Below are positions 37,493 through 64,000 of a stretch of DNA of 64,000 nucleotides, in pieces. The stretch covers positions 323,238 through 387,237 of the forward strand of contig NZ_LT593747.1 in the NCBI RefSeq assembly GCF_900089075.1. Reading direction: 5' to 3'. The stretch's first letter is position 1, and the number at the start of each line of letters is the position of its first letter. The stretch is from Vaginella massiliensis. GTDB lineage: Bacteria; Bacteroidota; Bacteroidia; Flavobacteriales; Weeksellaceae. The notes below the pieces were generated by a model. The model made no database searches and was not told the DNA's origin. It saw only the letters and a program-made list of their open reading frames with translations. The translations under genes and the position numbers were made by a program.

Positions 37493-37845
37493 TAGGGCAA
37501 AGATAATTCTTTGTCTTCAGATATAAAATGTTAGAATTTACTTGTTCGAATAATCGGTGCGATGAGCGTTAGAAAAAATGGCGTATTTTCTAGAAAAGCA
37601 CTTGAAAGAAAGTTAACGACTTTATCTGCAAAAATATAAAAATATTCTCCGCATAATTTGCGGTGATTAAGGTGTTTTTTCTCTGCAAGAGTATTAAATA
37701 ATCCTTTCTGCAACTTTGTCAATGGTACTGCGGAAAAGCTTTTGTGTAGCGATTACTTCCCGATGCAGAATGTAAAATTTCGTTTATTAATAGTAGTTTT
37801 AGAGTATTGAGGTGTACGAAAGTAGTACATAATTTATAATTATAA
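37493..37845. other. Intergenic stretch between pcrA and the IS982 element
   Basis: About 350 A+T-rich bases. I see no full-length gene or RNA gene. A small hairpin CCGCA-TAATT-TGCGG lies near 37651-37665. On the minus strand short open pieces in different frames (around 37700-37770, then 37531-37722) could be the eroded remains of a coding sequence, but no family is recognised. Confidence 0.4.
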
Positions 37846-41192: not shown

Positions 41193-41195
41193 CAA

Positions 41196-44100: not shown

Positions 44101-46193
44101 TCAAGTTTGGTGATCGTTCCGCCCAATTTTACGCTAGAATTTTTATCAGACAATTTTCCGGAGGCCAATAAATTGAGATTTGCATTGGGATCATGTGAGA
44201 GAAGATGAATATTATATTTACCAGAATTCAATTTGCCGGAAAGACCAACGTTTTGATAGCGGTAATTTTGATAATCAAATGCTGCCAAATTTCCTTTAAA
44301 ATCCAAGTTTCCATTCTTAAAATTAAAGCTTCTTCCTTTTGCACTCAACCTTCCTCGAACAATCCCCAGGTCTTTATTTTGGATGATTTTTCCGATTTGC
44401 AAATTCGCCAAATTGGCATTAACAGCATACGTTTCTGCATTTTTTCTGCGCATATCGACCAGTGCGTTCAGCACAACATTTCCCAAAGTTGAAACCATTT
44501 TCAGTTTCGTATCGACCACTTTTGTTGTTCCGCGGGCGACTCCCGAAATAGCAAAATATGAAGGCAAAGAAATATTGGAAGGAACGGTATTTTTCGGCAA
44601 AATCTTCAATATAGTTTTTGCGGAGGAACCTAAATTTCGAATTTTCAAGTCATAAAATAACTTATTGGGATCGGTTGCATTTCTTACCACTCCAGAAAGC
44701 GCCAACTTCAAGTCACCCAATCCGGATGCTTGTAAATTGGCAATCTGCATCTCATTCATCGTTCCTTTTATCCTTGCGTCCAGATTGATAGTACCATTAG
44801 GATAAGTATTGAAAGGTGGTGTGTTTCGTAAATCCGGAGCGAAATTCAACAAATCTGCCAAACCAATTTTTGAATTGTAGATATTTGCTGAAATACTTAC
44901 TGCACCAAGATTTGCGGATAATTGTTCGATGGAATTGTAATTTAAAACGATTTCGTCACGCAAGACCGTTCTGGAAGTTTCTAAATAAAGGTTTTTTAGG
45001 TATGCTTGCTTTTCGCCATACACAAAATCGGTATTGAATTTTCGTATTTCAAGGTTGTTCTTCTCCTTAATTTCAGCTTTTTTTACTGTTCCTGCGAACG
45101 TTCCATTCTGCATTTTAAAATCTCTCAAATCGAAATTCAGTTGAGAAAAATCGAGATGGTTGAAATCCATTCCCCAAGATTTTTTGGGCATCGCGGTATT
45201 GTTGTATGAAACCTTTACATCATCTAAAATAGCTTTACCTAGAAGCAGATCCAGCGATTTTTCGGCAGGTGATGGAAGATCAGAGTCTTTCGCTTCTTTT
45301 TGAGGTGCCGAGAACATTTTCGCATCAATATTTGCACCTTTCAAAAGAAATTGATCGACCTCATAACTCTGGTTTTCAATATCGAGTTTATTGATTTTTG
45401 TATTCAGTTCATTAAAGAGAATTTTGGCATAAGTTTTTGAATTATCGTCGCCATAATCTACATTAAAATTGGTGAATTTTATTCCATTTAATGCTAATTT
45501 CATTGGTTTTTTTGCTCGAAGCGAATCCGCCTTTTCATCAACCGTTTCTGCAACTTCTTCCAATAAATCTTGCTTCAATTTTAACTTCAATCCATCCAAA
45601 ACAATATTTCCCACGGCATACGAATTGCGATCAAGATCGAAGGTTTTCACCCGGGTATCGAAATACTTGAATTTAAGATTAATATCATTCCTGGCTTGGT
45701 TATCTATAAATGAAACATTGATATTCTGCAACTTAATTTTGTCTAAAGAAATGACGAATGGCTTACTTTCACTTTCCTGCGAATCTTTTCGGGCAAAAGC
45801 ATCGATAAAATAATCGAAATTAAAAGAACCATTTTTGTTTCTTACAACATTAGCTTTCACTCCATCTAAATCAATTGAAGTAAGATCGACGGTGTTTTTT
45901 AAAAGCTTGGGAATGTTTAATCCGACATCAAACTTTTTGGCATACAGCAACGTATCCACGGTTTGGCCTTGCAGATACAGATTTTCCATCACCAAACTAT
46001 TCGGAAACGTAACATAGAACCGATCGAGAGAAACTTTGGTTTTTACCTTTTTCTCTAAATATATTACCAACCGGTCCTTTAAAAAATTTTGAATTACCGG
46101 TAATTGTAAGCTCAAAACACCTGCGCATAAAATTGCTACAAATATTCCGACACCGATGAGAATTTTTTTGAAGTATTTTTTTGTGTTTCCCAA
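41196..46193 (-). CDS. tamB: Translocation and assembly module protein TamB (DUF490)
   Basis: A 1665-residue AsmA/VPS13-like bridge protein. One N-terminal membrane helix (KKILIGVGIFVAILCAGVLSL) is followed by a long beta-rich rod (about 50-1200) with repeats of the IxLDxVxxxN type. A C-terminal DUF490 domain (about 1200-1640) has VNVNISLTKEAKISLLIDKASGDFVKLQGEAELTGGVDPSGKTTLVG and ALLILNRFIGDNPF. It spans the periplasm to move lipid or assemble proteins with TamA. The first codon is TTG; no in-frame ATG is found upstream before the IS remnant, so the 5' end is uncertain. Confidence 0.87.
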   Translation of the reverse strand: MGNTKKYFKKILIGVGIFVAILCAGVLSLQLPVIQNFLKDRLVIYLEKKVKTKVSLDRFYVTFPNSLVMENLYLQGQTVDTLLYAKKFDVGLNIPKLLKNTVDLTSIDLDGVKANVVRNKNGSFNFDYFIDAFARKDSQESESKPFVISLDKIKLQNINVSFIDNQARNDINLKFKYFDTRVKTFDLDRNSYAVGNIVLDGLKLKLKQDLLEEVAETVDEKADSLRAKKPMKLALNGIKFTNFNVDYGDDNSKTYAKILFNELNTKINKLDIENQSYEVDQFLLKGANIDAKMFSAPQKEAKDSDLPSPAEKSLDLLLGKAILDDVKVSYNNTAMPKKSWGMDFNHLDFSQLNFDLRDFKMQNGTFAGTVKKAEIKEKNNLEIRKFNTDFVYGEKQAYLKNLYLETSRTVLRDEIVLNYNSIEQLSANLGAVSISANIYNSKIGLADLLNFAPDLRNTPPFNTYPNGTINLDARIKGTMNEMQIANLQASGLGDLKLALSGVVRNATDPNKLFYDLKIRNLGSSAKTILKILPKNTVPSNISLPSYFAISGVARGTTKVVDTKLKMVSTLGNVVLNALVDMRRKNAETYAVNANLANLQIGKIIQNKDLGIVRGRLSAKGRSFNFKNGNLDFKGNLAAFDYQNYRYQNVGLSGKLNSGKYNIHLLSHDPNANLNLLASGKLSDKNSSVKLGGTITKLDLYKLGFYQDPLILAGNIDGEFTNLNPDFLNGYLNLDQFAISDTKEVLPIQEMRLKAETTANSNALYFNSQVADFTMTGKYKLSQIFGALQNTVSNYYDVGKKKQRIDPHQYFDFTATLKDDDLIRKFVPELKSFETITMNVNYNADSQNINVDAQIPNLKYGENLIENASFKVSNDNDALQYQLKAQKISSEKLALNQFAATGNVANNLITYRVSTKDKKNVEQFLIAGSAQSLKNATQISLDPDGLKLNYTNWNVAPDNVLRFGNNGIFARNFLLSNGESSLAINSENENANSPLNVDLKNFKIETITEMLKKDSLLAKGTIDGNVRLKDYKNLNFTSDLNVTDLVMYGNPIGNIAAKVNTKTAKLLYADVALSGFENDVKITGDYDIESQLLDLEAEINRLQMKSVQGFTLNAIENTEGYLSGNFDITGKTESPKILGKLKFNDVGLEIVKTGSNFRHLDDEIRFAPRGIVFDDFKVKDSQGNALTFDGDILTQNYKDFAFDLKLRARDFMAVDSQPDNDKMMFGILAIDADLGITGNLDLPQVDGKLAVTDKTDFTFVIPQTSPTIKDREGIVEFIDQDQIVLNKTIKADSIDAKTGIKGMDVNVNISLTKEAKISLLIDKASGDFVKLQGEAELTGGVDPSGKTTLVGVYQVESGAYEMSFNMIKRKFDIQKGSTITWTGEPTTANLDFTAIYKTNAAPIDLVQQQLSEDQLNYYKQRIPFNTLLVLKGELLKPVITFDIQTDENNNAVNQEVIDNVETKLNQLRRDESELNKQVFALLILNRFIGDNPFQSQSGISAGTMARQSVSQILSQQLNNIAQDLIAGVDLTFDFDSYEEYSSGNKNTRTDLNVNLSKKLLNDRLKITVGSNFGIEGEARQNEEMTNIAGNITADYALSKDGRYTLRAYRKNQYQVALQGQIIETGVGFVITLDYTEFKDIFQRAKQNREIRRTKKAMQKNSAVEFK

Positions 46194-48107: not shown

Positions 48108-51100
48108 TTAATCCTCTGCTGCTATATGAATAGCTGTTTGTTGTTCTGGATATGGTTTAATTAAATATTTCTCAAAATCATCACATAATTGCGATAGTAT
48201 ATCTTTTGTTTCTCTTTTAAAGAATTCTCCCAAATCCTTGTTTTTAATCGTGAACTTACGATATAGCTTTGAGAAATCTTTTAATATTTCTTCGTGTGAA
48301 AATGAAGAACTTGTTGATGTCATTTTAGCTATTAAGCGTTTACCATCTGCATCTGACTTAATGTATTCAAAGAATAAAGTTATCTTTTCTTCAAAATCTT
48401 TGATTAATGCATCTATTTCTTCTTCTTCTTCTTGATTGCGTTTTTCTATAACCTTTAGGATGTTGTATTTAAACTTATTCGGTTTATCACTATCAGTCGG
48501 TGTAGGATTCTTGGTTTTAGATTCTTTCTGTTTGTATTCTTTTGGAGCGACAATCCCAATTCTGTTGTCAAAATAGATTTCTACATCATCAATAATTTCT
48601 TTTGTACCATTAATTTGGTTATAAATTACATTGTATCTATGCCAAAATTCTAAGAAAATATCTTCTGAATATTTTTTGTCCAACTCTATCACAAACTCTA
48701 TCAAGTTTAGGATTTTGAAGTATTTCAGTATTTTAGATTTTATTGCTTTAGCCTCTTTTTCATTATTGCGAATAAATGTATCTAAATCATTTTCTAATTC
48801 TACAATAGTCTGTACTTCTAATTTCCCTTCTTTATAAGATTTAAAATTGGCAAAATGCTTTTTGAATAAATCTTCTGCTTTTAATTCTTTAAATATTTCT
48901 ACTAATCTTTCTTCATCTCCTAATGGATCAAAATCTGAAACCACTACATTAGAAAAATGCTCAAAAGCTTCTTTTATATTTTTTACATTAATGTTTTTAT
49001 AAGAGAAATCTACAATCTTACAATCGTTTTTATATTTCGCTGTACGATTAACTCTTGAAATCGTTTGAATAGCGTTAATTCCTCTAATTTCTTTATCTAA
49101 AAATAAAGTATGTAATTTAGGTTCATCAAATCCTGTTTGCAATTTATCTACAACGATGATAATCCCATTTTTAGCTATTTTAAAATTTTGTAAAACACGT
49201 TCTTCACTTAAACCACTATTTAAACCACTACAACTTTGATACTCTTGGCTATCTGAATAAACGATATATACAGGAGCATCTGCAAAGCGTTCGTATTTTG
49301 GTTGTTTGGTTATTTCAGCATAATATTTTGATATAAAGTTTTTATACTTAATAGCCGCTGGAATAGATGATGCAGAAAGCATTGCTTTGGCTTTTCCTCT
49401 TATTTGATGATAAACCGTAGTTACTAATCTTTCTACTATAAATTTTGAAATGGCTTCTATACGTTCAGTATTTAGATAAATTTTCTTTTTACGAATTGCA
49501 TATTTCTTTCCATATTCATCAATACCTGTATCGGTGTCGTCAGGTATTAGGTCAAAACCATATCCCATATCTCTTTCAAATCCTTCTAAAAAATTATCCG
49601 GAAACTCAAAATACATTTTGGCTGAAACAGGAACAATCCCTCTAATTGGATTCAAAATATACCCATCATCAATAGCCTCTTTCATTGTATAACTATCAAA
49701 AGGAATCCATAATTTTTCAGCTTCTGCATAACGATTGTATTCACCAAATCTGGCTAATGTATGGTCGCTTGGTGTTGCTGTAAAACCAATGATTAAATTC
49801 TTTTTGGTACGCTGTTGTGTATAGGCATCATTATTATCGAAACTTGCTTGTAATTCGTCAAAAACGCTTAACATTTCTTCGTGTTGTGTACCACTATTGC
49901 TACGGTGTATCTCATCAATCAAAAATGCTATTCTTAGATTGGCTAAATTTTTAACAACCGTTTCATCTAATATGGTATTGACAGAACCAAACTTTTGTAA
50001 GTTGACTACTACAATTCTTTTGTCTGAACTTAAAGCATCAATAAAACTTTTGCGGTCTGTAGCTTCTATAAACATTGCTTTTTGAATGTTCATATTGTGC
50101 ATTTTAGAATCTAATTGATCTCTTAACTGCAAACGGTCTACCACCAGCATTACTTTGTCGTACACATATTCGCCTTCTTTGCGTAAGTCTTTTAATTGTA
50201 ATGCTGTCCAACCAATAATATTTGATTTACCAAAACCTGCTGCATACTGTAATAGTAACGAATACACATTTTTGTTGTTTTGGTATTTTAAACGCTTATT
50301 AACTAATTCTTGTACACGTTCTTCTCCAATTCCTTTTTCTCGTAATTCGGTTTCTAATTTTTTGATAAAATAGTCTGGTTCTTGCTCGTGTTTTAAAAAT
50401 TCTTCTACTTTGGCTAAAACCTTATCTGTACCGAATTTTTGTTTAGGACGTGGCGAAATTAAACGACCGTCATTATGTTTGTATTCTTTGGTTTTGCTTC
50501 CATCTTTTTTGATTAACTCACGCTCGATAAAGTTGTAATACAGAATTTCTTTTTCTATCATTTTTTTATCGTACAAGGCTCTAAATACTTCTTCGAAACG
50601 TGCTAACTTATCCGCATTAGGATTAACTAATGGATAGGGTTTAAAGTCTTTCAGCATTTTCTTTTCGTAATCCGAAAAGTCATAATCACCTTTGGTATCG
50701 GTTGCTTTAATATCATCAAAAAACGTAGCTATGTTTCTGATGACAAAGGTATCTGATAAATCGGTAGCCGTGATATGAATTGCTTTTTCGAAAATATGTA
50801 AGAAGTCTTTACGAATGGTTTGCGAAATGTCGTTTTTATCGGCTATTACCAAATATTTTTGTGTAGCAGATAGGTAATCTTTCATTACTTTATGACGACC
50901 ATTTTTACCTGCTGTTTGGTTGTTCCAATTGCTTTTCAGTTCGCTATAACCTAAATATATACCGTTTAAGAAAAAAGAGAGATCGGGACGAAATGAAAAT
51001 CTCGTTTTACCTTCGTGTTTAAATACATAGGGTAACTCTTGTACAATGGTAAATATATTTTCATCGAATGATTTGTCTTCTTGCAATACACTTCCACTTG

Positions 51101-51425
51101 GATAAAACAGATATATCTTTACACCTTCAAAAGTAACTGACTTATTGGAATTGATAAATACCGCCATATTCATAGATGATTTTATTTTGTCATCTAAGAA
51201 TGAAGTAAAAGCATCCATTAATTCTTTTTCGGAATCAAATTTTTTAAGCAATTTTTTATAATTGCTTTTGTTGAGTGAGGTTTCTGAAATAAAGTATTTT
51301 AAATCTTCTGTGATAAAAAATTTAGGAGAAACGGTATTGGCTTTTGCTTCTTTGTAACCTAATCCTTCTTTAATGTCCGTAAAGAAATGAATGATGTATT
51401 TATCTTGTAAGTCGAGTTCTTTCAT
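48108..51425 (-). CDS. hsdR: Type I restriction enzyme, HsdR (endonuclease/translocase) subunit
   Basis: A 1105-residue subunit. The N-terminal nuclease domain (about 90-200) carries PD in RPDLSFFLNG and E-x-K in GYSELKSNW. Two RecA-like motor domains follow: motif I YAAGFGKSN, VDRLQLRDQLDSKM, motif II FLIDEIHRS, motif III GFTATPSD, and motif VI QTISRVNRTAKYKN. The C-terminal part (about 900-1100) is charged and helical. It cuts DNA distant from unmethylated sites after ATP-driven translocation, with the HsdM and HsdS encoded upstream. The Abi gene lies 15 bases upstream, so abi and hsdR are likely one message. Confidence 0.93.
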   Translation of the reverse strand: MKELDLQDKYIIHFFTDIKEGLGYKEAKANTVSPKFFITEDLKYFISETSLNKSNYKKLLKKFDSEKELMDAFTSFLDDKIKSSMNMAVFINSNKSVTFEGVKIYLFYPSGSVLQEDKSFDENIFTIVQELPYVFKHEGKTRFSFRPDLSFFLNGIYLGYSELKSNWNNQTAGKNGRHKVMKDYLSATQKYLVIADKNDISQTIRKDFLHIFEKAIHITATDLSDTFVIRNIATFFDDIKATDTKGDYDFSDYEKKMLKDFKPYPLVNPNADKLARFEEVFRALYDKKMIEKEILYYNFIERELIKKDGSKTKEYKHNDGRLISPRPKQKFGTDKVLAKVEEFLKHEQEPDYFIKKLETELREKGIGEERVQELVNKRLKYQNNKNVYSLLLQYAAGFGKSNIIGWTALQLKDLRKEGEYVYDKVMLVVDRLQLRDQLDSKMHNMNIQKAMFIEATDRKSFIDALSSDKRIVVVNLQKFGSVNTILDETVVKNLANLRIAFLIDEIHRSNSGTQHEEMLSVFDELQASFDNNDAYTQQRTKKNLIIGFTATPSDHTLARFGEYNRYAEAEKLWIPFDSYTMKEAIDDGYILNPIRGIVPVSAKMYFEFPDNFLEGFERDMGYGFDLIPDDTDTGIDEYGKKYAIRKKKIYLNTERIEAISKFIVERLVTTVYHQIRGKAKAMLSASSIPAAIKYKNFISKYYAEITKQPKYERFADAPVYIVYSDSQEYQSCSGLNSGLSEERVLQNFKIAKNGIIIVVDKLQTGFDEPKLHTLFLDKEIRGINAIQTISRVNRTAKYKNDCKIVDFSYKNINVKNIKEAFEHFSNVVVSDFDPLGDEERLVEIFKELKAEDLFKKHFANFKSYKEGKLEVQTIVELENDLDTFIRNNEKEAKAIKSKILKYFKILNLIEFVIELDKKYSEDIFLEFWHRYNVIYNQINGTKEIIDDVEIYFDNRIGIVAPKEYKQKESKTKNPTPTDSDKPNKFKYNILKVIEKRNQEEEEEIDALIKDFEEKITLFFEYIKSDADGKRLIAKMTSTSSSFSHEEILKDFSKLYRKFTIKNKDLGEFFKRETKDILSQLCDDFEKYLIKPYPEQQTAIHIAAED

Positions 51426-51440
51426 AATTATAGTTCAAGG

Positions 51441-52340
51441 TTATTGGATAAATATTGGTTGGTTTTGCCAATGTGGTGGAAATCCCATTTTGTAAAATGG
51501 TACGTTAGGGAATTGTTGTATTAAATCTACTAATTCTTTTTTTAATGAATGCCCTGGAGATATTTTATCATTTAAATAAATCATTCCTGCTAATAACGGA
51601 AATATTTTCTTTAGATGATTTTGATTGGGTGTAAAATCTAATAATACTGTTTCCATATTTTTAGGCCAAGAATATTGCGTAATTAAAACTTTATTCCATA
51701 ATCTACTATGATGTGCAACAATATTTCTAACTAATGTGATACTACGTAACCAACTTGAAAAATCTGCCGAACTTGATAATCCAAATTCATTGGCTATTGT
51801 AGATTTTGCAGGTGACTGATGTTGTAGGTTATCATAAATTTTAGAAAGTGTACCTAAGGTAACTACTTCTAATGCTTTCCACGCTTCGGGGTAATCGTTT
51901 TTATGATTTTTGTAGTGCGATTTCATAAATTCTTCACTACTACTTTTCATTTCACGATTGAGTTTGGATAAAAATTCTGCGTGTTGAACTTTGTTTGTAA
52001 AAATCGATTGATCAATATACCAACATTCACCATAAAGTAAAGCTAAATGATAGATAAGTTTAGTACGCAAAGCAATCTCGATACGTTCTATTGCATTAAA
52101 AACTAATAACCTGAAATGCCTATCGAAATTGTACAAATCAATTACATCTTCGAAATAAGAATGAGGAGCGAAATGATGATTGACTTTATCGTCTTGCATT
52201 TCCCACCAATATCCCTTTAGGCGATAATACGATATATTCGCTAAAAAATGAGGTGCATTGTTAATGTCACGAAATAACATATCGCGACTTTGCAACAATT
52301 GTATTTGACCTGATATAGTTCTCGGATTTTTACCTGCCAT
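51441..52340 (-). CDS. Abi_2 family (AbiD/AbiF) HEPN-type abortive infection protein
   Basis: A protein of about 299 residues. Abi_2 features are RTISGQIQLLQSRDMLF, HFLANISYYRLKGYWW, the DFDRHFR-like stretch LYNFDRHFRLLVFNAIERIEIALRTKLIYH, and a HEPN RNase-type motif R-x4-H at Arg205-His210 (LVRNIVAHHSRLWNK). The ATG at 52340 is chosen; the longer frame up to 52427 would be read from the leader and includes hairpin sequence. Relatives act as RNA-cleaving toxins in phage defence. A consensus promoter and structured leader directly precede it (52341-52454). It sits between hsdS and hsdR, so it may act when restriction fails. Confidence 0.85.
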   Translation of the reverse strand: MAGKNPRTISGQIQLLQSRDMLFRDINNAPHFLANISYYRLKGYWWEMQDDKVNHHFAPHSYFEDVIDLYNFDRHFRLLVFNAIERIEIALRTKLIYHLALLYGECWYIDQSIFTNKVQHAEFLSKLNREMKSSSEEFMKSHYKNHKNDYPEAWKALEVVTLGTLSKIYDNLQHQSPAKSTIANEFGLSSSADFSSWLRSITLVRNIVAHHSRLWNKVLITQYSWPKNMETVLLDFTPNQNHLKKIFPLLAGMIYLNDKISPGHSLKKELVDLIQQFPNVPFYKMGFPPHWQNQPIFIQ

Positions 52341-52420
52341 TGTGAAGATGGTATTTACGAACAGGTATAAAATAAGAAGACCCGCAAGCTGTTCTGATGG
52401 GAAGCAGTACGGGTACCGTT
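52341..52420 (-). ncRNA. Candidate structured leader or small RNA upstream of the Abi_2 gene
   Basis: Starting just after a good promoter, the RNA would have a 5-bp stem ACCCG/CGGGU (52410-52414 with 52380-52384) enclosing about 25 bases with CUG/CAG complementarity, then a U/A-rich single strand to the ATG. A second possible stem GGGTA/TACCC uses bases of the -7 region, so it is DNA-level only. AbiF-type HEPN genes are reported to be paired with an upstream antitoxin-like RNA; that this leader is one is an inference from position and fold. Confidence 0.4.
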
Positions 52421-52424
52421 GATG

Positions 52425-52454
52425 CAAAGATACCCATAATTTTTGAATTGCAAA
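52425..52454 (-). promoter_or_regulatory. Promoter of abi-hsdR
   Basis: Minus strand: TTTTG (TTG at 52451-52453), 18 bases, TATCTTTG (52425-52432), an exact fit to TTG-N17-23-TAnnTTTG. It is internal to the defence operon and would start a message with a leader of about 80 bases before the Abi_2 start codon. Confidence 0.65.
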
Positions 52455-52483
52455 ATATTTTCAAATTATTATTTAATCAGTGG

Positions 52484-52557
52484 CTTATTTAAAATTTGGA
52501 ACACTAATTTAAATAAAAAAATTCTTATTTAAAATTTTGGCTATTTTTTTAAATAAG
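52484..52557. repeat. Two tandem 40-bp units of inverted TTATTTAAA/TTTAAATAA sites
   Basis: TTATTTAAA at 52485 and 52525 and its complement TTTAAATAA at 52508 and 52548. Each pair is offset by 23 bases, and the second pair repeats the first 40 bases later; CTTATTTAAAATTTGG is shared between units. They lie between the hsdS stop and the abi promoter. They look like operator sites for a dimeric regulator, or hairpins at the 3' end of the hsdS message. Confidence 0.5.
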
Positions 52558-52589
52558 GACTTGGACTTTTTAAAAATTAGCAGGATTTT

Positions 52590-53918
52590 TTACTCTACCA
52601 CTTTTATTTTACCGGTTACTACGTCGTTGATTAATGTTTTACGTAACTGTTTTAAGGTGTCTATTTGTTTTCCAATATTAATTACGATAGCATCTATAGT
52701 AGCTGTTTTATGGTCTAAATATTTGGCTATTTCCTCTTGTTCTGATTTGGGAGGAACAACCATCTCAATGAAAGATAAAATACCTTGACTAACATTTGGT
52801 TGTGTACCACCTACACTTAAACTTATTATATATTGCTTAATATTTAGTAATTGATAAAAATGAAATTTATTGAAATTATCATTTTTTAAATTTAAACAAC
52901 AACAAGCTTGATTTGTTGTAGAGTCAATGTCCAATAACCCCATTTTCCCAATAGTTGCACCATACATCGCAATTACTAAAGTACCTTTCTTCTGAATTTT
53001 TAAATTTGGATAATCGTCAAATACCGTGTTGTTTAATTTTTTTTGAGTTGAATTTATTATACCGTCATTTAAATCTCCTGTATTTAACCAATTAATTGTA
53101 CCATCTTCATAATAAGAAAGGTTACCTGAGGTTGGAGTTGCACCAGAAGACATAGATTTACATACATCCTTTAAACGTTTCACCTCCCAATGTTGTGGGA
53201 TTTGCCCAATCCAAGAGATGCCGCTGTCTTTCATTTCGACTTCGCTCAATGACCGTAAACCTTTTGTAATGGTTTGGTTGATGAGTGTACGTTTTAATTT
53301 CTTATACGTTTCTATCTTTTGTTCTAAAAGCGATATTTTTTTATCTATTGCTTGTGTTTTCGCATCTAAATAATTGGCAATGGCTTGTTGTTCGTGGAAA
53401 GAGGGAATTAAGAAAACAAATCTTTCAAAAACATTTTGATATAAATGTAAAATAGTAGAACCGTTTTTATGATAGTCTATAAAATCTCTAAAAACATTAG
53501 AACTTAATACCCAATAAAAATAATCAACATTATAACTTTTCATTAATGGACGGGTTACAAAAACACCACTATTTAAAGTTGATTTTTTAGGTAAATCTTT
53601 AATTAATGCTATTTTCCCAATTGTGCCATCTTTGGTAATAAGTAGATCATCAATCTTTAATTGAATTTTTTTATCTTGATTATAACGATCTTCTTCTACA
53701 CAATAACAGTTTTCCCAATCAATAGAACCATCTTTAAAATCAGTTCCTGTAACACAATACCAATCAGAATTTAAAATAAATTCATCACTTCTTAAGCCTT
53801 GCCAACCAATACGAGCTTTAACGTATGTGTTATTTTTTATACGTCCTAATTTCCACGATGATGGATATTCCTTAATCCAATGAAACTCAGATTGAGTTAA
53901 ATTTTCATATTTCCTCAT
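52590..53918 (-). CDS. hsdS: Type I restriction enzyme, HsdS (specificity) subunit
   Basis: A 442-residue two-TRD protein. The first TRD (about 20-170) is followed by a conserved coiled coil (LDAKTQAIDKKISLLEQKIETYKKLKRTLINQTI). The second TRD (about 235-385) starts GISWIGQIPQHWEVKRLKDVC and is followed by the matching coiled coil LDHKTATIDAIVINIGKQIDTLKQLRKTLINDVVTGK. The two halves set the two parts of the recognition sequence. The start codon ATG overlaps the stop codon of the 28-codon frame before it. Repeats and a separate promoter follow it. Confidence 0.93.
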   Translation of the reverse strand: MRKYENLTQSEFHWIKEYPSSWKLGRIKNNTYVKARIGWQGLRSDEFILNSDWYCVTGTDFKDGSIDWENCYCVEEDRYNQDKKIQLKIDDLLITKDGTIGKIALIKDLPKKSTLNSGVFVTRPLMKSYNVDYFYWVLSSNVFRDFIDYHKNGSTILHLYQNVFERFVFLIPSFHEQQAIANYLDAKTQAIDKKISLLEQKIETYKKLKRTLINQTITKGLRSLSEVEMKDSGISWIGQIPQHWEVKRLKDVCKSMSSGATPTSGNLSYYEDGTINWLNTGDLNDGIINSTQKKLNNTVFDDYPNLKIQKKGTLVIAMYGATIGKMGLLDIDSTTNQACCCLNLKNDNFNKFHFYQLLNIKQYIISLSVGGTQPNVSQGILSFIEMVVPPKSEQEEIAKYLDHKTATIDAIVINIGKQIDTLKQLRKTLINDVVTGKIKVVE

Positions 53919-54001
53919 AACCCCAACTCATTTTGACAAGTTAATATTAATTGTTTTTTAATGGTCTTGTCGAACTCGCCTTTTAAAATTTTACAAATCA
54001 T
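53915..54001 (-). CDS. 28-codon ORF overlapping hsdM and hsdS by ATGA at both ends
   Basis: Reads MICKILKGEFDKTIKKQL, then ILTCQNELGL, and stops. Its ATG overlaps the hsdM stop (ATGA at 53998-54001) and its TGA overlaps the hsdS ATG (ATGA at 53915-53918). It exactly fills the 79-base gap between the two genes. It may be a real micro-protein, or it may only carry ribosomes from hsdM to hsdS. No homology is recognised. Confidence 0.45.
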   Translation of the reverse strand: MICKILKGEFDKTIKKQLILTCQNELGL

Positions 54002-56100
54002 AAGGCAAGGCTCGTTTCAAGGTTAGCTAATTCGTTTTCTAAACTTTCTAATTCAGCTTGTAAATCTGCAATAGGCGTTAATTGTTCAGGTACATAGAAA
54101 ATCTTGTTGAAATTGATTTCAACCCCAATCACATTGTCGCTGTATTCAAACGGACGCGTCACATACTTTGCCATAAAATCGGCAATTTGTTTTTGATTGT
54201 CTGCTTCTACGGGATGATACGGGATAATCTCGTAATCCTTCACCGTATCTTTTGTTAATTCAACGGTTATCTGGATAAACGCATCTTTGGTTTTTGTTGG
54301 TTTTTTATAGGCTGCTTTTACAAGAATTTTACCGTTACCTAATTCTTTGGCTTCGACAGGCTCAGCCACCGAAGTTGCTACAATCGTTTCTTTGTCTGCA
54401 TCGTAGCTGTAAATCGCTTTTGGTGTATGGATTTTAAGATTCGATTCTTTATAGTCGATGCTATTGATTAATTCTTTAACCTCTTGATTGAAATATTCTT
54501 CTAAGCTGCTGTAAGAAGTTTTGTCAAATGTTGTGATTTCAAAATTGGTTAGTTCTTTTACTTCACCATCAAAGGTTACAAATTCTACTTTTGTAGGATT
54601 TAGTTTTATTGATTTTTCCTCTACGGTTTCACCTGCTCTGTTGATTTTAGTAGGCATTTGAATTGCCTTACCGTTTTCATCTACATTGGTTAAAATAATA
54701 GACTGTTTGTTGTAATAGAAATGCCATTTATCAAAGACTTTTGCCATTTCTTTACCATCTACAATAACATCTTCGAAATTGACAAAAGCATCTACAATTG
54801 CTTTTCGATTATCGGCATTCATCTGACGGCGTTTTTTACCTTTGGATTTCTTTAATAATTCCCATTGGTTGCTACCATCAATTAATATCACTTTATCTTT
54901 TCGATTGGCAGGTTTGTTTTTATTAAATACCCATAGATAGGTATAAATACCCGTATTGAAGAACTCGTCTTGAGGCATTTGGATTAAAGCTTCTACCCAA
55001 TCATTATCAAAGAAATGTTTACGGATATTCGATTCACCAGAACCAGCATCACCCGAAAATAAAGTAGAACCATTGTGAACGATCACCCCAAACCCATTGT
55101 CATTTTCTAATTTCGATAAGATGTGTTGGGTAAATAAGAATTGCCCATCTGAGATAGAAGGTAAGGCGTGAAAACGACCTGTTTCGTCTGATTTTACTTC
55201 TTTTTCAAATCCTTTCCAATCCACACCATACGGCGGATTAGCTACTGCGATATTGAACGATTTATTGAAGAATTTACCTGTTTCTGTAATGGTATTCCCG
55301 TATTCGATGTAGGTATCTTTACGGAATCTACTCTCGATTTTAGCCAATGCGTACAAGGTATCGTTCCATTCTTGCCCATAAGTAGCCGTAGGACGATTGG
55401 AGATTTCTTGGATCTTGTCTTCAACTCCAAAAAGTAAGTTTCCTCCACCACAAGTGGCATCATAAATCGTTAAAAACTCATTGTTATCTTCAATCTTCGT
55501 TGCAATTAGTTCAGAGATTAAAGAGATAATATCATCAGGTGTATATTGTTCCCCAGCTGTTTCAGCCGAAATATCTGCCCATTTGCGTTTGATGTGTTCT
55601 TCTAAAGTGGTAATATCGGAGTTATTGAAAGGTAATAAATCAATCTCGCTCCACGCTTTTACGGTATTGAAAAGAATGCGTTTTTTCTTTAGTAAACCAC
55701 TTACACCTGTAATATCTAAGAATTTTTCTTCTTCGTTCCCTTTATCAACTCCTAAAAGGTATTTGGTTTCAGCATCAAAAGCTTTTAAATAACCATCAAA
55801 ATCTGTGTCGAACGCTTTATCGTTTTTACAAATGTCTTTTAACGTAATCCCTTTACGAATGACATAATCATTATAGCCAAGACCTTCTAATTGGAAAATC
55901 TCTACAAAGTCTTCTATATCTTCTATGCCTTCTTCTTCTCGTATTCTGTTGGCTTCACGAATTAATCTACTCTCTACCATGACTAAGGCAAAGAAGGGCA
56001 TCATAAATTTAGGGAAATCGGATTGTTTGATTCCTGCACCGATTAGTAAATCGGCTGTTTTCCAAATGTCTGACTCGTATTTAAGTATGTTAATGCTCAT
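53998..56100 (-). CDS. hsdM: Type I restriction enzyme, HsdM (adenine methyltransferase) subunit
   Basis: A 700-residue N6-adenine DNA methyltransferase. The helical N-terminal domain (about 1-165) is followed by the catalytic fold: motif I YDATCGGGNLLFG and motif IV NPPYGVDW (N-P-P-Y, the gamma-class adenine signature), with TGIYTYLWVFNKNKP beyond. The C-terminal 200 residues are longer than in short HsdM proteins and contain a helical tail ending ELESLENELANLETSLAL, likely for binding HsdS. It methylates the host site with HsdS. A TACATTTG box lies 27 bases upstream of its ATG. Confidence 0.93.
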   Translation of the reverse strand: MSINILKYESDIWKTADLLIGAGIKQSDFPKFMMPFFALVMVESRLIREANRIREEEGIEDIEDFVEIFQLEGLGYNDYVIRKGITLKDICKNDKAFDTDFDGYLKAFDAETKYLLGVDKGNEEEKFLDITGVSGLLKKKRILFNTVKAWSEIDLLPFNNSDITTLEEHIKRKWADISAETAGEQYTPDDIISLISELIATKIEDNNEFLTIYDATCGGGNLLFGVEDKIQEISNRPTATYGQEWNDTLYALAKIESRFRKDTYIEYGNTITETGKFFNKSFNIAVANPPYGVDWKGFEKEVKSDETGRFHALPSISDGQFLFTQHILSKLENDNGFGVIVHNGSTLFSGDAGSGESNIRKHFFDNDWVEALIQMPQDEFFNTGIYTYLWVFNKNKPANRKDKVILIDGSNQWELLKKSKGKKRRQMNADNRKAIVDAFVNFEDVIVDGKEMAKVFDKWHFYYNKQSIILTNVDENGKAIQMPTKINRAGETVEEKSIKLNPTKVEFVTFDGEVKELTNFEITTFDKTSYSSLEEYFNQEVKELINSIDYKESNLKIHTPKAIYSYDADKETIVATSVAEPVEAKELGNGKILVKAAYKKPTKTKDAFIQITVELTKDTVKDYEIIPYHPVEADNQKQIADFMAKYVTRPFEYSDNVIGVEINFNKIFYVPEQLTPIADLQAELESLENELANLETSLAL

Positions 56101-56200: not shown

Positions 56201-59200
56201 TTATATATCAAGTAAATGAATGAAATCATCAAATTGATCATTTAGTAATTCAGTTATAAAATTTTCACTCCAAAATGGATGTACAACCAAGTATTTTTTT
56301 CCATTATTTTGTTCGAAATAATACACATTATTTTTTCGTTGAAGCTTTGAATCATGTTTACTCAAGATTAACTGGGTCAAATAATTACCAAAATAATCTT
56401 GCCAATAAACTTGAGAATAATCTAAATTAACATTACTATCTTCAGACATCATCGCTAAATCTAAAGCATACCTCCAATTTAATAAACTATGATGATTTTG
56501 ATTATAATAATCCCTTAAACAATCATAGCATGATGAAAAACAATCATGGCTATGTATTTCTTTTGTTAATGAATTATATATTTCTCCATCAGGCAATAAA
56601 TTTGAAATGAAAACCTTTTGACTAATTTCTTTATCGGAATTACCATTTAAATGGTTAGTATAACCAGCTCCATTATCTGCTGTTTCAACTATAAAAATTT
56701 CGTGTTGACGAGTAGATGGAGAAATCCTATACCCTAAATTAAATTCTGAAATTTCAACATCTAGTTCACTACATATTGATTTACGAATTAAATATCCCCA
56801 GGAAAGAAAAATTGCTTTCTGATATACACTCGTAGGGTCCAAAGTATATTTATTATCTATTTTATGCAATTGTAATGTTAGAACCCCGGTTTTTTGAGTA
56901 GCAATTAAAGCATAGTTATTTTCATCTAAAACTTTAACATTTTTATCGTTAAGTAAATCTTTCACAACCCATCTATTGGTATTTCTAATTTTTCCTAATT
57001 TAAATAATTCACCATCGTTATCATTTATTTGGTGAACGATACCTTCGTCAGGTATCACATTAGATGAAACTAAGACATTCTTTAAAACAACTTTATTCGT
57101 TAAGTTTGAGTTTGGATCTAAAGATATTTCTCCTGCTCTCGAATTAAATTCAAAACGACCATCAAAGTCCTTAGCAGGATAGTCGTAATCTACGCAAAAG
57201 CCTTTCGGTGAAATAACATTTAATTCCTCCAATTCATATTCACATTGTGAACATTTTTTATTCTCCGTCCGTCTTGTATATACTGTTTTACAATTTACAC
57301 ATCGATAAACCCCACTTCTTAAAGAATGCGATAAGCCTTCTTCAACAACTCGACCTTGATTATAACAATAGGAAACTATTCCAACACTCTTTAAAATCTT
57401 CTTATCCTTTATAATTTCACCGCCTGGCGCAAATTCTGAAATAGCTAAAGATAGACCTCTAGAAACAGTATTTTCAGCAGGTAGAACCTTAGGAACTTTT
57501 TCATATAAAGATCTAACTTGAGTAGGAAATCCAAACATAGGTAGTATTCCAGCATTCGCAAGTTTTTCACTCAAATCAATCTGAGGAAAATCAATTGAAT
57601 TTCCACAAATTTCATCTATTTTCTGTGGTAATTTCAAAACCTCATCATTATAGATTTTATCAGCTGACATTTCAACATTTGACCCGATCTTAAAGGTCTC
57701 AATAATTTGATAGACATCATTTCTTTCATTTTCAATAAAAGAAATCACTTTTTTCTTATTCAGCGGCCATTCGTAATCTTTTCCAAAGTTTCCATGAACA
57801 TTTGAGGAATTAAAATTTTCGTTTTTAAAAGCTCTATTTAATATTTCTTTATATACAAAGCGTAAGAATATTTGCTCACGATTCATCTCTAAATAAGGAT
57901 CAGCTGGTGTAGCAGAAACCATCCGATATGACTCGTTATAATGAGCTTGATCGTGTGAATTTCCTTTGGCTACAGTTAATGCAATTGAAACAGGACTCCC
58001 TCTACGGCCTGCTCGACCAACACGTTGTTGATAATTAAACCTCTGTGGCGGTACATTTCCCATCATCACTGCAGTTAGAGAACCAATATCGACCCCAGCC
58101 TCCATCGTAGTCGTAACACTCAATAAATCTATTTCTTCTACCAATTGATTTTCTTGTTCTAACAATCTTCCTTGAAATAAACGCTGACGTTTACGTCCTT
58201 CACTTGAATCCGTTTGACCTGATAATTCTTCGCAGTGAAGACGTAAGTTATCATTGTTCTGTAATTTAGCTAAATGCAGATAGTAATTATTAGCTAATAT
58301 TCTATCAATTCTTTCTTTTTCAGCTATTTCTAAACTTGCATTGCAACAATTGGTACAGATATTCTGGAAATTAATTAATTGTAAATTACTACATGTTTTG
58401 CAAACATACGTGGGTTGTGGGTTCTCTTTTAAAACAAAATTTAAACCACTACCAGTCAAAACAAATTTATCATCCCTATTCAAACGACTTGCTTGTAATA
58501 TAGCTAAGAATTCATTTTTAAAGGGATGACGATAACCTTTAAATCCTAAGCAGGCACGTGCATATTTCCATACTTTTTGTGGTATGGAAGTAAAATTAGT
58601 ATTAGATTGAGAAGACTCTATTCGATAAGACTCACCTAATAATTTGATACAATTTGTAATAAATGAAATTGGATAAGAATAATCACCTTGTATAGAAGGT
58701 TTCAAATACCCAATATTTAAAGACTCGAATGACCTCCTACTACCTGCTAATAAACTTAAAATAATTTCATCATTCAACGATTTACGTAATTTTTGATAAA
58801 ATGCAACATCCTCAAATTCTTTAAAATAATTGGCTTCAAAATCTACTTGAAGATGCCATGGGAGTCCATTGGAATCCCTTAATAGGGAATCTCTGGGACC
58901 ACCTGGATTAATCCCCTGTTTTAACAAAGAAAATGCAATTTTTCCAACGATATTTACTATTGAGATCCCAGTTTTTGAATATTCGTTGATTTTTTTCTGT
59001 AAATTAATAAATTCGTTATCATCGGATTCAAATGAGTGATATTCTAAAATTTCAGAATACAACTCCTTTATAGTTGTATTAACGTGTCTTCTTAAATAAT
59101 TACCTTCTTCTTTAGTTACCTTCTTTTCCAATGATTTCATTAAAAGTTCATAATCTTTAGATTCATCAGAAAGATTTTTTAATAAAAAATAACGCACCAA

Positions 59201-61333
59201 ATCTTTATAATGATCCATCTCAATCCCTGCTGCAAGTTTAGCTGCAGCTTGCCTACTATCTGAGAATAATACTAATTTGGCAGATTTGGGATCTTTCTTT
59301 TGTAAGGAACGCATTAAACCATCTGCCATCAATTGATTGATCTTTTGAACACCTGTATAATGACGATGTATTGGTGTTAATGAATTTTCTTCCAAACGAT
59401 CTTCTCTTAAACTTGTACCACAACATACACAAACATTTGGATATTTTGCTTGATAATCATTATTTACATTAAAAACTAATGCATTTCCTCCTATTCTCCC
59501 TAGTGACCATTCATTTGACTGGTAATCAATTGTAATAAATTTCCATTTGGATAATTCTTTGTTAATCTTCTCGTCTACATCATCAGGGTTAATTTTACTA
59601 TTAATGTTGTTGTAAATTACACGACTGATAAATCGATCTTTATCTAAAGTTGGGGTTTGAATAAGCGTGTAAATATTAGAATTACTCAGAGATTCTTTAT
59701 CTATCCAAGATTCTAAATAGATTTCACCACATTGTCTACAATTTAATAATTCCAATACAACTGAACCACAACCACACTTGGTCTGTGGTCTTTTATACAA
59801 TTTACCTACATTACGTCCTTCAAACTGAAAATGTTCTTCTACTTGATTACAACTAGGATTTACACAAGCCCATAATCCATCCACATTTCGAAAGAATAAA
59901 TGTGTACGTATGGGTTGTAAAGAATTCCCATTATCATCTTTTAATACAGTTAATGCTACTAAAATTTGTTTTAGTGCTTCGATTGCAACACCTATTTCGT
60001 CATTTGGAAAAAGTAATTGAGCTAACTTATTAGCTTCCTCAGGTTTATTTAAATGAGATTTTAGATGATTTAAAAGTTGATGTTTTTTAAATAATAAATC
60101 TAAGTCTTCACTTTCTAATTCCTCCAGCTTCAAAAAATCATTTGCTGAAAGAATGTCTTTTATAGGTGGTGTTTCTATTTTTTGATCTTTTACAATAGTA
60201 AAACGTTCACTAATATGCTCTTCATTAACTCCAAAAAAACCTGAAAGGAATTTTTTTACACGAGGCGTATCCTGCATCGAAGCGCTTGAACACAAAAATT
60301 GCAATTGTTTTGAATCTGGCTCTAATCCAAGTCGATGCAATAATAATCGTATCAAATAGGCTACTTCTGTTCCACTCGTACCACGATATGAATGTAATTC
60401 ATCAATTACTAAATGAAAAACATGATTTTCAGACTCTTCTAACCATTTTTTAGTTTCTTCAAAAATCCTCTCTTCTTCCTTACGATTCAGCATAATATTT
60501 AACATACTGTAATTCGTAATTAATATATCTGGTGGATTATCTTGTATTGACCAACGATCACACAATTCAATTTCTGGATAATCTCGATTTGGTATGTCTA
60601 GTAGATAATCAGAAGTATTTTTCTTATCGTGCTCTACTGATTCTTTTACAGATTTCCATTCTTTATCTAATTGTTCTAAAGCTTTTCTATTTTGTGTAGA
60701 TCGTTTTTTTCGATCACCTGCTACAGGAGTCAAACCTGTATAACGTGCAAAAGTTATATAATCTCCATTTAATGATTGATCAAACCAATCAATCACCTCA
60801 GAAGTGGACAATGTCCGTCTTAAACGTCTCATTTGATCTTCAGCTAAGGCATTTAAAGGATAAAGTATCAACCCTCTTACAGCGGGATGCGATGCCTTTT
60901 CTTTTGAAGAATTAATCTTTTCATTTAGAATATCATAGAATAACGGAAAAAGGAAACATTCTGTTTTTCCTGAACCAGTTCCAGTAGTAACAATTAAATT
61001 TTTACGATCAATGGAAGCTGTTTTGAAGGATTGATATTGATGTACATACAATTCACTTTTCTGATTACCAAAATTTGGAAACAATCCTTTTCTTACAAAC
61101 GAAGCAAAACGTTGATCAATTTTTAATTCATCACAAATATTTTCTATAGTATCGTAGCTTTCATACTTCGGTGTAAATTCAATAATCGGATACTTAGTAA
61201 TAGTTTCATCAGAATTAAGTAAATCATTACGTTCATCTTCCAACTTCTTGTTACTAAAAAATAAACTTGTATCTATATATTTTTGGTAGGTAGTTTTTAA
61301 ATCATCCCAAATTGAAAATAAATTTTCTTTCAT
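56201..61333 (-). CDS. Large SF2 helicase with Zn-ribbons and C-terminal DUF1998-like domain
   Basis: A 1710-residue protein. The motor has Walker [14 protein letters not shown] (residues 118-124 core), DEAH-type motif [20 protein letters not shown], motif III CSSASM, motif [21 protein letters not shown] and motif [15 protein letters not shown]. At least four Cys pairs suggest zinc ribbons ([57 protein letters not shown]). The end ([11 protein letters not shown], then [23 protein letters not shown]) is the DUF1998/MZB signature of MrfA-, DrmA- and DruE-like helicases. Expected to translocate on DNA in defence. It is coupled to the 285-residue gene by ATGA. Confidence 0.85.
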
Positions 61334-62187
61334 AGTATTGTATAAGATAGTTTTAATGGTTTTAAAATTTGATTTACCTGCTTTTTATTCAAACAAAATT
61401 GATTAAATGCGGGAATTTCACCTTTGTTTAAAACATGTGTGATAAATAAGGTTTTGTATATAAAATTAGGAAGTGTTATACTCTTTTCAACTGATAAAAT
61501 TTGAGTAATAGAATCCAATGTGAAAATGGTTTTATTAGTTAAAACTAACCGAATAAATAGTATTTTTTCAGTTTCATAAGGTTTTATTTTATAATACCTA
61601 TTTGCAAAAACTAATAGATACTCAAAATATGCATCATTATGTATGAAACGTTTATATAATGCAGTATCCTCCCCATACACCTTTTCATTTCTCCATTCAT
61701 TTTTAACTGAATCAAATTTTTGCAATTTCACATAAGAACTAAAATTCTGTAAATCAATTGGCTTCCATTCTTTTATTATTTTTTTTAATGGTTGAAATTG
61801 ATGCGTGTAGTTATCTAAATTAAATACTACATTATATGGATTATCCATCCAATTTATATCCTTAAAAACAGTTAAACCTAAGTATTGACTATAGACTTTT
61901 TCAGGATTTTCCTTTAAAAATGATGCGGGTAAATTTACACCTAAACTATAATCACCTTTTGAATCTGAATATATTTTTGAGGCTGTTAATCCGTAACTGT
62001 TTTCATCAACTTTATCAATTAATCCCATTCGTAATAATTCATAAAAAGGGTATAATTGAGAAGGTTGATTTTCGTCTCTCAATAAATTTTTAATCTTTTC
62101 AAACTTGAGCGATGTTTTTCCTAAAGCATAATTATAGACAAATACATCATATAAAAAACTAATCATAACTCTAGAAATATTGTTCAC
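61330..62187 (-). CDS. Unrecognised 285-residue protein in helicase cassette
   Basis: No family is recognised. The N-terminal 90 residues look like a winged helix (helix [12 protein letters not shown], then [29 protein letters not shown]), suggesting DNA binding or protein docking; the rest is mixed alpha/beta. The ATG at 62187 overlaps the upstream gene by 17 bases; a second ATG at 62166 (MISFLYDVF) follows the upstream stop by 4 bases and could be the real start. It is joined to the helicase gene by an ATGA overlap, so the two are translated together. Confidence 0.6.
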
Positions 62188-63904
62188 TATAATCTTGTAC
62201 AGCTCTATTGAATGTAATGTTTTTTAAATCAATAACTTCATTTGTAGGAAACTGAATAAGGTTAATTGATGAAAGATTTGGTAAACATTTCCAGTTTCTA
62301 AATGTCGATGGATTTAAATCAAATCCAAAGTCATCAATTTCTTCATCCGTAGGAATTAAAATGATGGTAAGATTAGAAGGCATAATATGTACTCCATCTA
62401 CTGTCATTCTAATTCTATTGGTAATATCTAATATTGGTTTACCATAGCATTCGAAGCTGGCAATATTAAAATCCTGCAACACATAAAAATAATGATATTT
62501 CTCATCTGTGGAAGCTTGTTTAATAACAGATAATAATCCGTTATCTTTCCATAACTTAAACTTCAACCAATCAGCTTCAGCATGTTGAATTGCAATTTTT
62601 GCATCTCCTACATGAGCCAATAAATTAAGTACAAATTCGACGCTTTTCGCAAGCAAGAATCTATTATCCTTTAATAGAATTAATCCATCTTCATATTTAT
62701 CTTGATTTGGAAAACGAAAATTAAATTCATCTTTCAATTCATCATAAAAGTCATCCAAATCTGTAAATACTGGAGAACCATTAAGATAAGATACAAATTC
62801 AACTGGATTTATATCTTCATCAATAGTAGAACCGTTTGAGAAAATTTGTGGCTGAAGATTCGCCATTATTTTAATGGTAGTAACAATTTCGTCTTTTTTA
62901 GATTCTATTATCTGAATTTGGTCTTTTACATCTTGTAATTTTTGTTGTTCATCTTTAACTAATTCTTCATAAGATACTAAATCATTTTTCTTCTCTTTTA
63001 GCAAACTTTCAACAGCAGCTAAACTATCTTCTAAACCCTTCTTAAAATAAGCTTCAAAATCCTCCTTATGCTTATTAATCGAATTTTTCACTACTTCAGC
63101 CCAATCTTTATTTTCCCCCAATTTATATAGTTGTTCAAAAGATAAAGTTAATTGGTTTAAATATTTCTCAGCACGTTTTAAACGGACAGCATCCAATCCA
63201 ATTTGTTTATTATTAATTGATGAAATCTGCGCCCCTACTTTTAAGATTAAATTCAAATCTGCACGATCAATCGCAATCCTATCTTTTAAAAACTCAACCA
63301 ATTGTGCTGGGGTACTACAATCAATCGATTTAATTTTAGTATGTGGTTCTTCAATTAAATACAGATAGTCTAAATCTTCGTCCTCAATTAATTCTTCTAT
63401 ATGATATTCAAAAGCATTAGTTTCTTTCCCTATAACCGGCAATACTTTTTTATTTTCAACCTTAAATGGCCCAAAAATATCTGTACTGTCACACAAATAA
63501 ATTCGTGAAAAATAATCAGGAATTAAATTTCTTGAAAATAAGAATTTAGAAATATTTTCTAAATCTAAATAATCTTCTGCAATATAATCAGTAGGAATAT
63601 CAATAACTGGAACTCCTATTTTATTTACTTTTTTTAAACCAACATATATATTTCTATTTTCAGAAATTTCAAAATTTATCTTAGAAGGAATAATTTCAAT
63701 CAAATCTTTTACTTGAACATTATCTCCATATTCATATATCTTATTTGAATAAATAACTCCTGAAGTATGAAAAATCTCTTGCATTCTATCTGGATCATCA
63801 ATGTATTTATTATCCACTTCAACTCCAATTACTTTACAGTTTCCACCGTTTCCATCGTACGAACGGTCTAATGTTATAGCTATAATTTTATTAATATTGT
63901 CCAT
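62171..63904 (-). CDS. Coiled-coil protein with degenerate McrB-like AAA+ domain
   Basis: A 577-residue protein with no close family recognised. Residues 270-345 form a charged coiled coil. Residues 365-540 follow the layout of McrB-type AAA+ ATPases: a strand and loop at 408-421 (KDNRFLLAKS where GxxxxGKS would stand), the W in AEADWLKF, a Walker-B-like strand YFYVLQDFNIASFECYGKPIL (472-491, with Asp but Phe in place of catalytic Glu), and MPSNLTIILIPTDE (508-521) like sensor 1. The key residues are lost, so it is probably a non-hydrolysing scaffold. The N-terminal 200 residues are mixed beta/alpha. This is pattern reading and needs profile confirmation. Confidence 0.55.
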   Translation of the reverse strand: MDNINKIIAITLDRSYDGNGGNCKVIGVEVDNKYIDDPDRMQEIFHTSGVIYSNKIYEYGDNVQVKDLIEIIPSKINFEISENRNIYVGLKKVNKIGVPVIDIPTDYIAEDYLDLENISKFLFSRNLIPDYFSRIYLCDSTDIFGPFKVENKKVLPVIGKETNAFEYHIEELIEDEDLDYLYLIEEPHTKIKSIDCSTPAQLVEFLKDRIAIDRADLNLILKVGAQISSINNKQIGLDAVRLKRAEKYLNQLTLSFEQLYKLGENKDWAEVVKNSINKHKEDFEAYFKKGLEDSLAAVESLLKEKKNDLVSYEELVKDEQQKLQDVKDQIQIIESKKDEIVTTIKIMANLQPQIFSNGSTIDEDINPVEFVSYLNGSPVFTDLDDFYDELKDEFNFRFPNQDKYEDGLILLKDNRFLLAKSVEFVLNLLAHVGDAKIAIQHAEADWLKFKLWKDNGLLSVIKQASTDEKYHYFYVLQDFNIASFECYGKPILDITNRIRMTVDGVHIMPSNLTIILIPTDEEIDDFGFDLNPSTFRNWKCLPNLSSINLIQFPTNEVIDLKNITFNRAVQDYSEQYF

Positions 63905-64000
63905 CTTTGTATTGGCTTAGTGCGTTAATTAAAATGTATTTCGAGGTTGATTTGCGTATTTTCCTATTATTGTTCGTTAGTGTTTTCATCCATTGATTAA
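63891..64000 (-). CDS. 3' end of an upstream gene, cut by window edge
   Basis: A frame open from the window edge reads NQWMKTLTNNNRKIRKSTSK then YILINALSQYKDGQY and stops at 63891, overlapping the start of the 577-residue gene by 14 bases. An internal ATG (63989) would give a 32-codon ORF on its own, but since the frame stays open to the edge it is more likely the end of a longer gene. Short overlaps of this kind are the rule in this cassette. Confidence 0.4.
   Translation of the reverse strand, partial: NQWMKTLTNNNRKIRKSTSKYILINALSQYKDGQY

Follow-up and report, generated by a model that had tools for sequence, protein, structure and literature searches.

The 64,000-nucleotide stretch of Vaginella massiliensis DNA analysed here (the window; G000:C9:323238-387237, part of a 2.43-Mb genome) runs into a minus-strand operon that is most likely a variant within the type II/IV group of the Druantia defence systems, extending a known kind and founding none. 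Its four genes, orf509, orf577, orf285 and a helicase gene in last position (coordinates in Table 1), form a conserved operon with a DruE helicase and a DruF homolog. Our comparisons suggest that orf577 encodes a DruG-like, inactive relative of McrB-type AAA+ proteins and orf285 a DruL-like winged-helix protein. The best reading of the gene set is druF, druG-like, druL-like and druE, which would be intermediate between type II (F, G, E) and type IV (F, L, E), without DruM. We infer an anti-phage activity and a mechanism for the operon, and put the joint claim, that it is a divergent Druantia with a role in defence, at a probability of about 0.75. The initial annotation of this DNA had proposed a defence cassette around a DUF1998/MrfA-type helicase, either undescribed or a remote version of a known system, and the latter suggestion came close.

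The helicase as a Druantia DruE

Over nearly its full length (residues 4-1694) the helicase matches the PADLOC model DruE4 with 1267 bits, followed by DruE2 (1229 and 1182 bits), DruE1 (691 bits) and DruE3 (468 bits). Among the best 25 of 34 PADLOC matches, the scores drop sharply after the DruE models, to 88 bits for DpdJ and 55 bits for DrmA, so the best helicase model is that of neither Dpd nor DISARM. Pfam recognises DEAD and Helicase_C domains, and the MrfA zinc-binding domain (MZB) falls marginally under the cut-off. Aligned with 13 other DruE proteins, the helicase motifs are intact (motif I TGTGSGKTE, a DELH box, motif VI QQRVGRAGR and the DUF1998 cysteines), and the protein carries seven CxxC. 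Its Walker A lysine is K123. By these profile matches and motifs it is a clear Druantia DruE, a YprA-family superfamily 2 (SF2) helicase with an MrfA-like zinc-binding C-terminus, in agreement with the original description of a 1710-residue SF2 helicase with zinc ribbons and a DUF1998-like end.

The C-terminal tail looks non-catalytic and contains an HP(F/L)W block (here HPFW) common to nearly all type II and IV DruE proteins aligned. This region aligns with type II/IV DruE tails, as opposed to the active PLD domain of type III, and in the DruE of types I and II Bell et al. interpret the C-terminal domain as a Vsr nuclease that has been inactivated (PMC12458937). No recognisable nuclease was found in the four operon proteins, although an absent match is not proof. 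With type III (DruH, DruE) the operon shares a DruE-family helicase, and it differs in that its partners have no DruH match, the helicase C-terminus has no recognisable PLD nuclease and the DruE3 score is low by comparison.

In a tree of DruE proteins, the window helicase and those of three other genomes (G150, G619 and G627) form one clade with 100/100 support within the type II/IV assemblage. The stem branch of this clade is long, at 1.51 changes per column, and the clade joins a Gastranaerophilales DruE weakly (80/73), a junction that we flag as long branches meeting.

Conservation of the four-gene operon

The minus-strand order orf509, orf577, orf285 and helicase emerged once the contig, which runs on beyond position 64000, was followed upstream; the fourth gene, orf509, bears out the earlier count of three or more genes. 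The frames originally described stand, as do the 14-base overlap of orf509 with orf577 and the 4-base overlap of orf285 with the helicase. The 17-base overlap reported between orf577 and orf285 is probably a start-codon artefact with a true gap of 4 bases, because homologs place the orf285 start at ATG 62166 (MISFLYDVF aligned with MIDFLYYTF). The 4-base overlap is kept in four of four homologous loci, and the junction spacings are -14, +4 and -4 bases in the window, -14, +3 and -4 in G619, and -17, +3 and -4 in G627.

Three overlapping samples, of 395 genomes from the same phylum, 296 from the same family and 396 from the same order, yielded full-length orf577 relatives in three other genomes, the G150, G619 and G627 of the helicase tree; a weak partial match in G369 (E=6.4e-4) was left uncounted. 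All three hold the four genes in the order of the window with the helicase last, so the gene set does occur in other genomes, and chance grouping is excluded because the order is kept. Identity to the window proteins in G619, G627 and G150, respectively, is 64%, 65% and 51% for the helicase, 46%, 45% and 25% for orf577, 38%, 39% and 29% for orf509, and 34%, 33% and 19% for orf285. By these lower identities the partners have changed far more rapidly than the helicase, and the parallel fall over all four genes is as expected for a unit inherited together.

In the window, a type I restriction system (48108-56100) lies directly downstream of the cassette on the same strand, with hsdM about 100 bp from the helicase gene, as the initial annotation had noted. 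No such system was seen beside the G150, G619 or G627 copy; the type I system is therefore a neighbour and not a conserved part of the cassette. That the operon might instead be an accessory or regulatory module of this system, as its placement just upstream of hsdM could imply, is scarcely credible given three copies with no type I system adjoining them. Nearby genes at the other loci encode a UvrD-type helicase and a YhcG nuclease (G619), AbiH (G627), and an integrase and a small protein without a Pfam match (G150); we count the AbiH, YhcG and UvrD genes in favour of a defence role. No methyltransferase gene lies in the operon at any of the four loci.

orf509 as a divergent DruF

The window orf509 alone stays under significance with hidden Markov models (HMMs), its best DruF match being DruF2 (E=0.068). 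Its G150 ortholog matches DruF4 at E=1.2e-8 as well as five further DruF models, and BLASTP to Nostoc DruF gives 2e-6 to 1e-5. A four-member orf509 profile scores 101.7 in hhalign against five DruF4 proteins (residues 2-178), whereas the highest score among 60 column-shuffled templates is 21.8 and a reversed template gives 20.4. Because the ortholog matches and the profile score lies far above the shuffles, orf509 is, by profile comparison, a divergent DruF, with the likeness confined to its first third (about 180 residues). The profile had no match among solved structures, and a scan of viral contigs found no relative.

The initial view that the partner proteins do not resemble Druantia components thus fails for orf509, whose gene extends beyond the window, and Druantia is likewise evident in the helicase; orf577 and orf285 resemble DruG and DruL only by profile and position. 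Among the three proteins first described, the helicase was the only one to match a known system strongly. It is conceivable that the operon represents a separate, undescribed class of defence system with only its DruE helicase in common with Druantia, as the missing family matches of orf577 and orf285 and the long stem of the DruE clade would allow. We find this very improbable, both because of the DruF assignment and because a Gastranaerophilales contig holds an operon in which F, L and E are recognised and keep this order. That operon (L012:5314-17513) encodes DruF (626 aa), a coiled-coil protein (626 aa), DruL (E=1.6e-24) and DruE, followed by a NERD-UvrD gene, and its order of F, coiled coil, L and E matches that of the window cassette. 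A DruE search of genome contigs with poorly chosen patterns gave two loci, one of them useful.

Candidate DruG-like and DruL-like partners

The orf577 protein comprises an N-terminal domain, a coiled coil at about 266-349 and a degenerate AAA+-like C-terminal part, with no Walker A motif. It has no significant family match in Pfam or PADLOC. Among all Druantia partners tested, its profile ranks highest with DruG, with hhalign scores of 25.6 against three DruG proteins and 33.9 against seven (shuffles at most 23.6). Moreover, in three of four single homologs, residues following the coil (within 417-487) align to the same DruG stretch (within 456-529), and no control aligns its post-coil region to that stretch as they do. 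DruG in turn aligns from Walker A through sensor 1 with McrB, represented by the protein beside mcrC on L046 that we took as a true McrB (score 25.2; 0 of 80 shuffles as good). We tentatively regard orf577 as a likely pseudo-AAA+, DruG-like protein: the coiled coil first described is present, and the pseudo-AAA+ character claimed for it is plausible from the weak alignments to McrB and DruG. Against solved structures the profile mostly finds coiled coils, and scans of viral contigs and plasmids gave no relative.

The best of five AlphaFold2 models of orf285 (pLDDT 86.4, against 45-61 for the other four; pTM 0.83) predicts a winged helix in residues 1-61 and a mostly beta remainder, in line with the winged-helix-like protein first described. 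VIA-align places it on the winged helix of Rpa2 (Z 8.0, 1.9 Å over 56 residues), which supports the fold class only, since unmatched models often reach Z values near 8. The Foldseek and VIA-align matches fall mainly within residues 1-63; the remainder of the protein gave none that was clear, and this is not proof of a new fold. Weak CBL matches among solved structures were taken as chance. The orf285 profile ranks highest with DruL (hhalign 21.7, colinear; shuffles at most 18.5), the length is DruL-like, and the gene occupies the slot directly upstream of druE, as does the clear DruL gene of the Gastranaerophilales operon. By position, length and profile, orf285 is probably, if tentatively, a DruL-like winged-helix protein.

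Several results weigh against these two assignments. Against the orf577 profile, unrelated proteins with coiled coils score as high as 30.5, close to the DruG score, so the full-length value does not decide the question. With DruG, the post-coil part by itself gives 21.1, a value equalled by 1 of 60 shuffles, and residues 457-518 align weakly with the Walker B to sensor 1 region of McrB (22.1; 6 of 80 shuffles as good). The AlphaFold2 model of orf577 is poor (pLDDT 48) and unusable for a fold search. For orf285 there is no DruL HMM match, and the gap-free score with DruL (18.5) equals the best shuffle. Neither the match of orf577 to DruG nor that of orf285 to DruL is significant from sequence alone.

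These doubts would favour a plain type IV system, defined by DruE, DruF and DruL (PADLOC 2021, PMC8565338), that has gained an unrelated coiled-coil gene by insertion, so that orf577 would not be DruG at all. The lack of a significant family match for orf577 would agree with this, as would the Gastranaerophilales coiled-coil protein, which is unlike DruG by profile (score 13.4). We nevertheless consider such an insertion rather improbable: orf577 holds the same position in four of four copies, scores best with DruG with a colinear post-coil match, and has a parallel in the inactivated CnuB homologs reported in type I/II operons (Bell et al., PMC12458937). A type I system that has lost DruA is less probable still. 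By order and size, orf509, orf577, orf285 and the helicase would then be DruB, DruC, DruD and DruE, and two features point that way, namely a set of four genes with DruE last and a weak PADLOC match of orf577 to DruC1 (E=0.015). We dropped the DruC1 identification as a coiled-coil artefact, as the coiled coil of that profile draws matches in 159 of 395 Bacteroidota genomes and in 9 of 14 controls. In addition, window proteins gave no match to DruA (DUF4338), DruB or DruD, none of the copies scanned matched DruB or DruD (a comparison made through family models), and DruE4 and DruE2 fit the helicase far better than DruE1 does.

Relation to known systems

A divergent Druantia of the type II/IV group agrees best with the mixture of features seen. 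As in type IV, DruE4 is the top helicase model, a DruF homolog is present and a DruL-sized protein is encoded just upstream of druE. Unlike type IV, the operon has an extra coiled-coil gene between F and L, the DruL models miss orf285, and the window DruF has 509 positions versus about 680. With type II (DruM, DruF, DruG, DruE) it shares DruF, the tentative DruG-like protein and a DruE that scores nearly as well with DruE2 and has the non-catalytic-looking HPFW region. It differs from type II in having no DruM cytosine methyltransferase in four of four copies and a separate DruL-like gene; the hsdM gene here is that of the type I system. Bell et al. (2025) named Druantia I/II type IV CoCoNuT and reported that these operons encode inactivated CnuB homologs (PMC12458937). 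A YprA-family helicase and a putative inactivated McrB/CnuB-like coiled-coil protein are features in common, with the AAA+ ancestry of orf577 only putative here. For Azaca, raised earlier as a comparison, no ZacA, ZacB or ZacC family appears among the PADLOC matches listed for the four proteins, from a library in which Zac models are unconfirmed, and a literature search found no paper.

Cyanobacterial and Deinococcus plasmids carry F-L-E operons (type IV). Rhizobial and other plasmids carry F-G-E, several with a cytosine methylase (type II); the PADLOC model confirmed DruG only in Agrobacterium pusense, and the rest were assigned by position. In Alisedimentitalea (L010:5943-8984), a 1013-aa DruF has a C-terminal quarter that matches DruL (E=1.7e-11), an apparent F+L fusion that would link Druantia types II and IV. 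The fused F+L there, compared with separate F, coiled coil and L in Gastranaerophilales and the window, suggests that types II and IV arose by rearranging a single set of genes. It is tempting to go further and see a distinct F-G-L-E type without methylase or nuclease, which would show that types II and IV derive from an ancestral set by trimming or fusion. Such a type would defend without cutting DNA itself, through a helicase under the control of a pseudo-AAA+ scaffold; this stronger version we consider unlikely. A Meiothermus plasmid (L045:7968-15793) has an arrangement outside the listed types, with DruE, a 381-aa protein and DruA; by eye, the 381-aa protein looks like a Cas4-type PD-(D/E)XK nuclease.

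Possible mechanism and implications

In our literature search, type III was the only Druantia type with a published mechanism; none was found for types I, II or IV. The DruE helicase of type III is a dimer and loads on single-stranded 3' tails (PMC13192584), and the type III system prevents phage DNA from circularising and replicating (PMC13316683). By analogy, we offer a mechanism that is tentative and, taken whole, may well prove wrong. The F, G-like and L-like proteins would together make up a scaffold and sensor that binds DNA and recognises some feature of phage DNA as it invades or replicates. Since no methylase is conserved, this feature would not be methylation, and discrimination of self from non-self would rest on DNA structure or on a phage trigger. 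The scaffold would load or license DruE, which would translocate on and unwind DNA with a 3' single-stranded tail and thereby stall phage replication or genome circularisation. Any DNA degradation would fall to host nucleases, given that none of the four proteins has a recognisable nuclease domain. The analogy is weakened by its source: the mechanisms cited are those of type III, in which DruE includes an active nuclease domain that was not recognised here.

A compact operon with no methylase or recognisable nuclease would make it possible to ask directly whether the DruE helicase can block phage DNA on its own, and the same operon would allow the roles of the F, G and L partners to be tested. 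Moreover, annotation models recognise only druE, of the four genes in the window copy, with significance, and the diversity of Druantia in Bacteroidota is therefore probably under-counted.

Genomic setting

Table 1. Features of the operon, the adjoining restriction system and the probable integrated element. Plain numbers are window positions.
Feature	Position	Strand	Details
DruE helicase	56201-61333	minus	1710 aa, open frame confirmed
orf285	61330-62187 (mechanical GTG start 62187); conserved ATG start 62166	minus	285 aa; 278 aa from ATG
orf577	62171-63904	minus	577 aa, open frame confirmed
orf509	63891-64000 in the window, on to about 65420 (L003:1129-2658)	minus	509 aa
hsdM	53998-56100	minus	Pfam/PADLOC
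hsdS	52590-53918	minus	Pfam/PADLOC
Abi_2/AbiD gene	51441-52427	minus	Pfam/PADLOC; inside the type I operon, between hsdS and hsdR
hsdR	48108-51425	minus	Pfam/PADLOC
20-bp direct repeat TGTAGCGATTACTTCCCGAT	37745-37764 (C9:360982)	plus	one element end
Second copy of TGTAGCGATTACTTCCCGAT	C9:397874-397893		3' end of mnmE; adjoins tyrosine integrase
Tyrosine integrase	L003:9847-11004		Pfam

The cassette is carried by a probable 36.9-kb integrated element bounded by the direct repeat, which has exactly two copies genome-wide, 36.9 kb apart. An empty site was not found: in the congener that has both mnmE and the flanking helicase gene on one contig, the two lie far from each other. The interval also contains the type I system and a second tamB. 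Omp85/TamA-like and TamB genes lie within the element at window positions 38844-46193 and are unusual cargo. The element TamB shares only 24% identity with the resident TamB at C9:579426, which has relatives in both congeners, and a diverged second tamB fits foreign cargo. Upstream of the cassette, at L003:2974-3896, two short overlapping frames without a family match are possibly a decayed gene.

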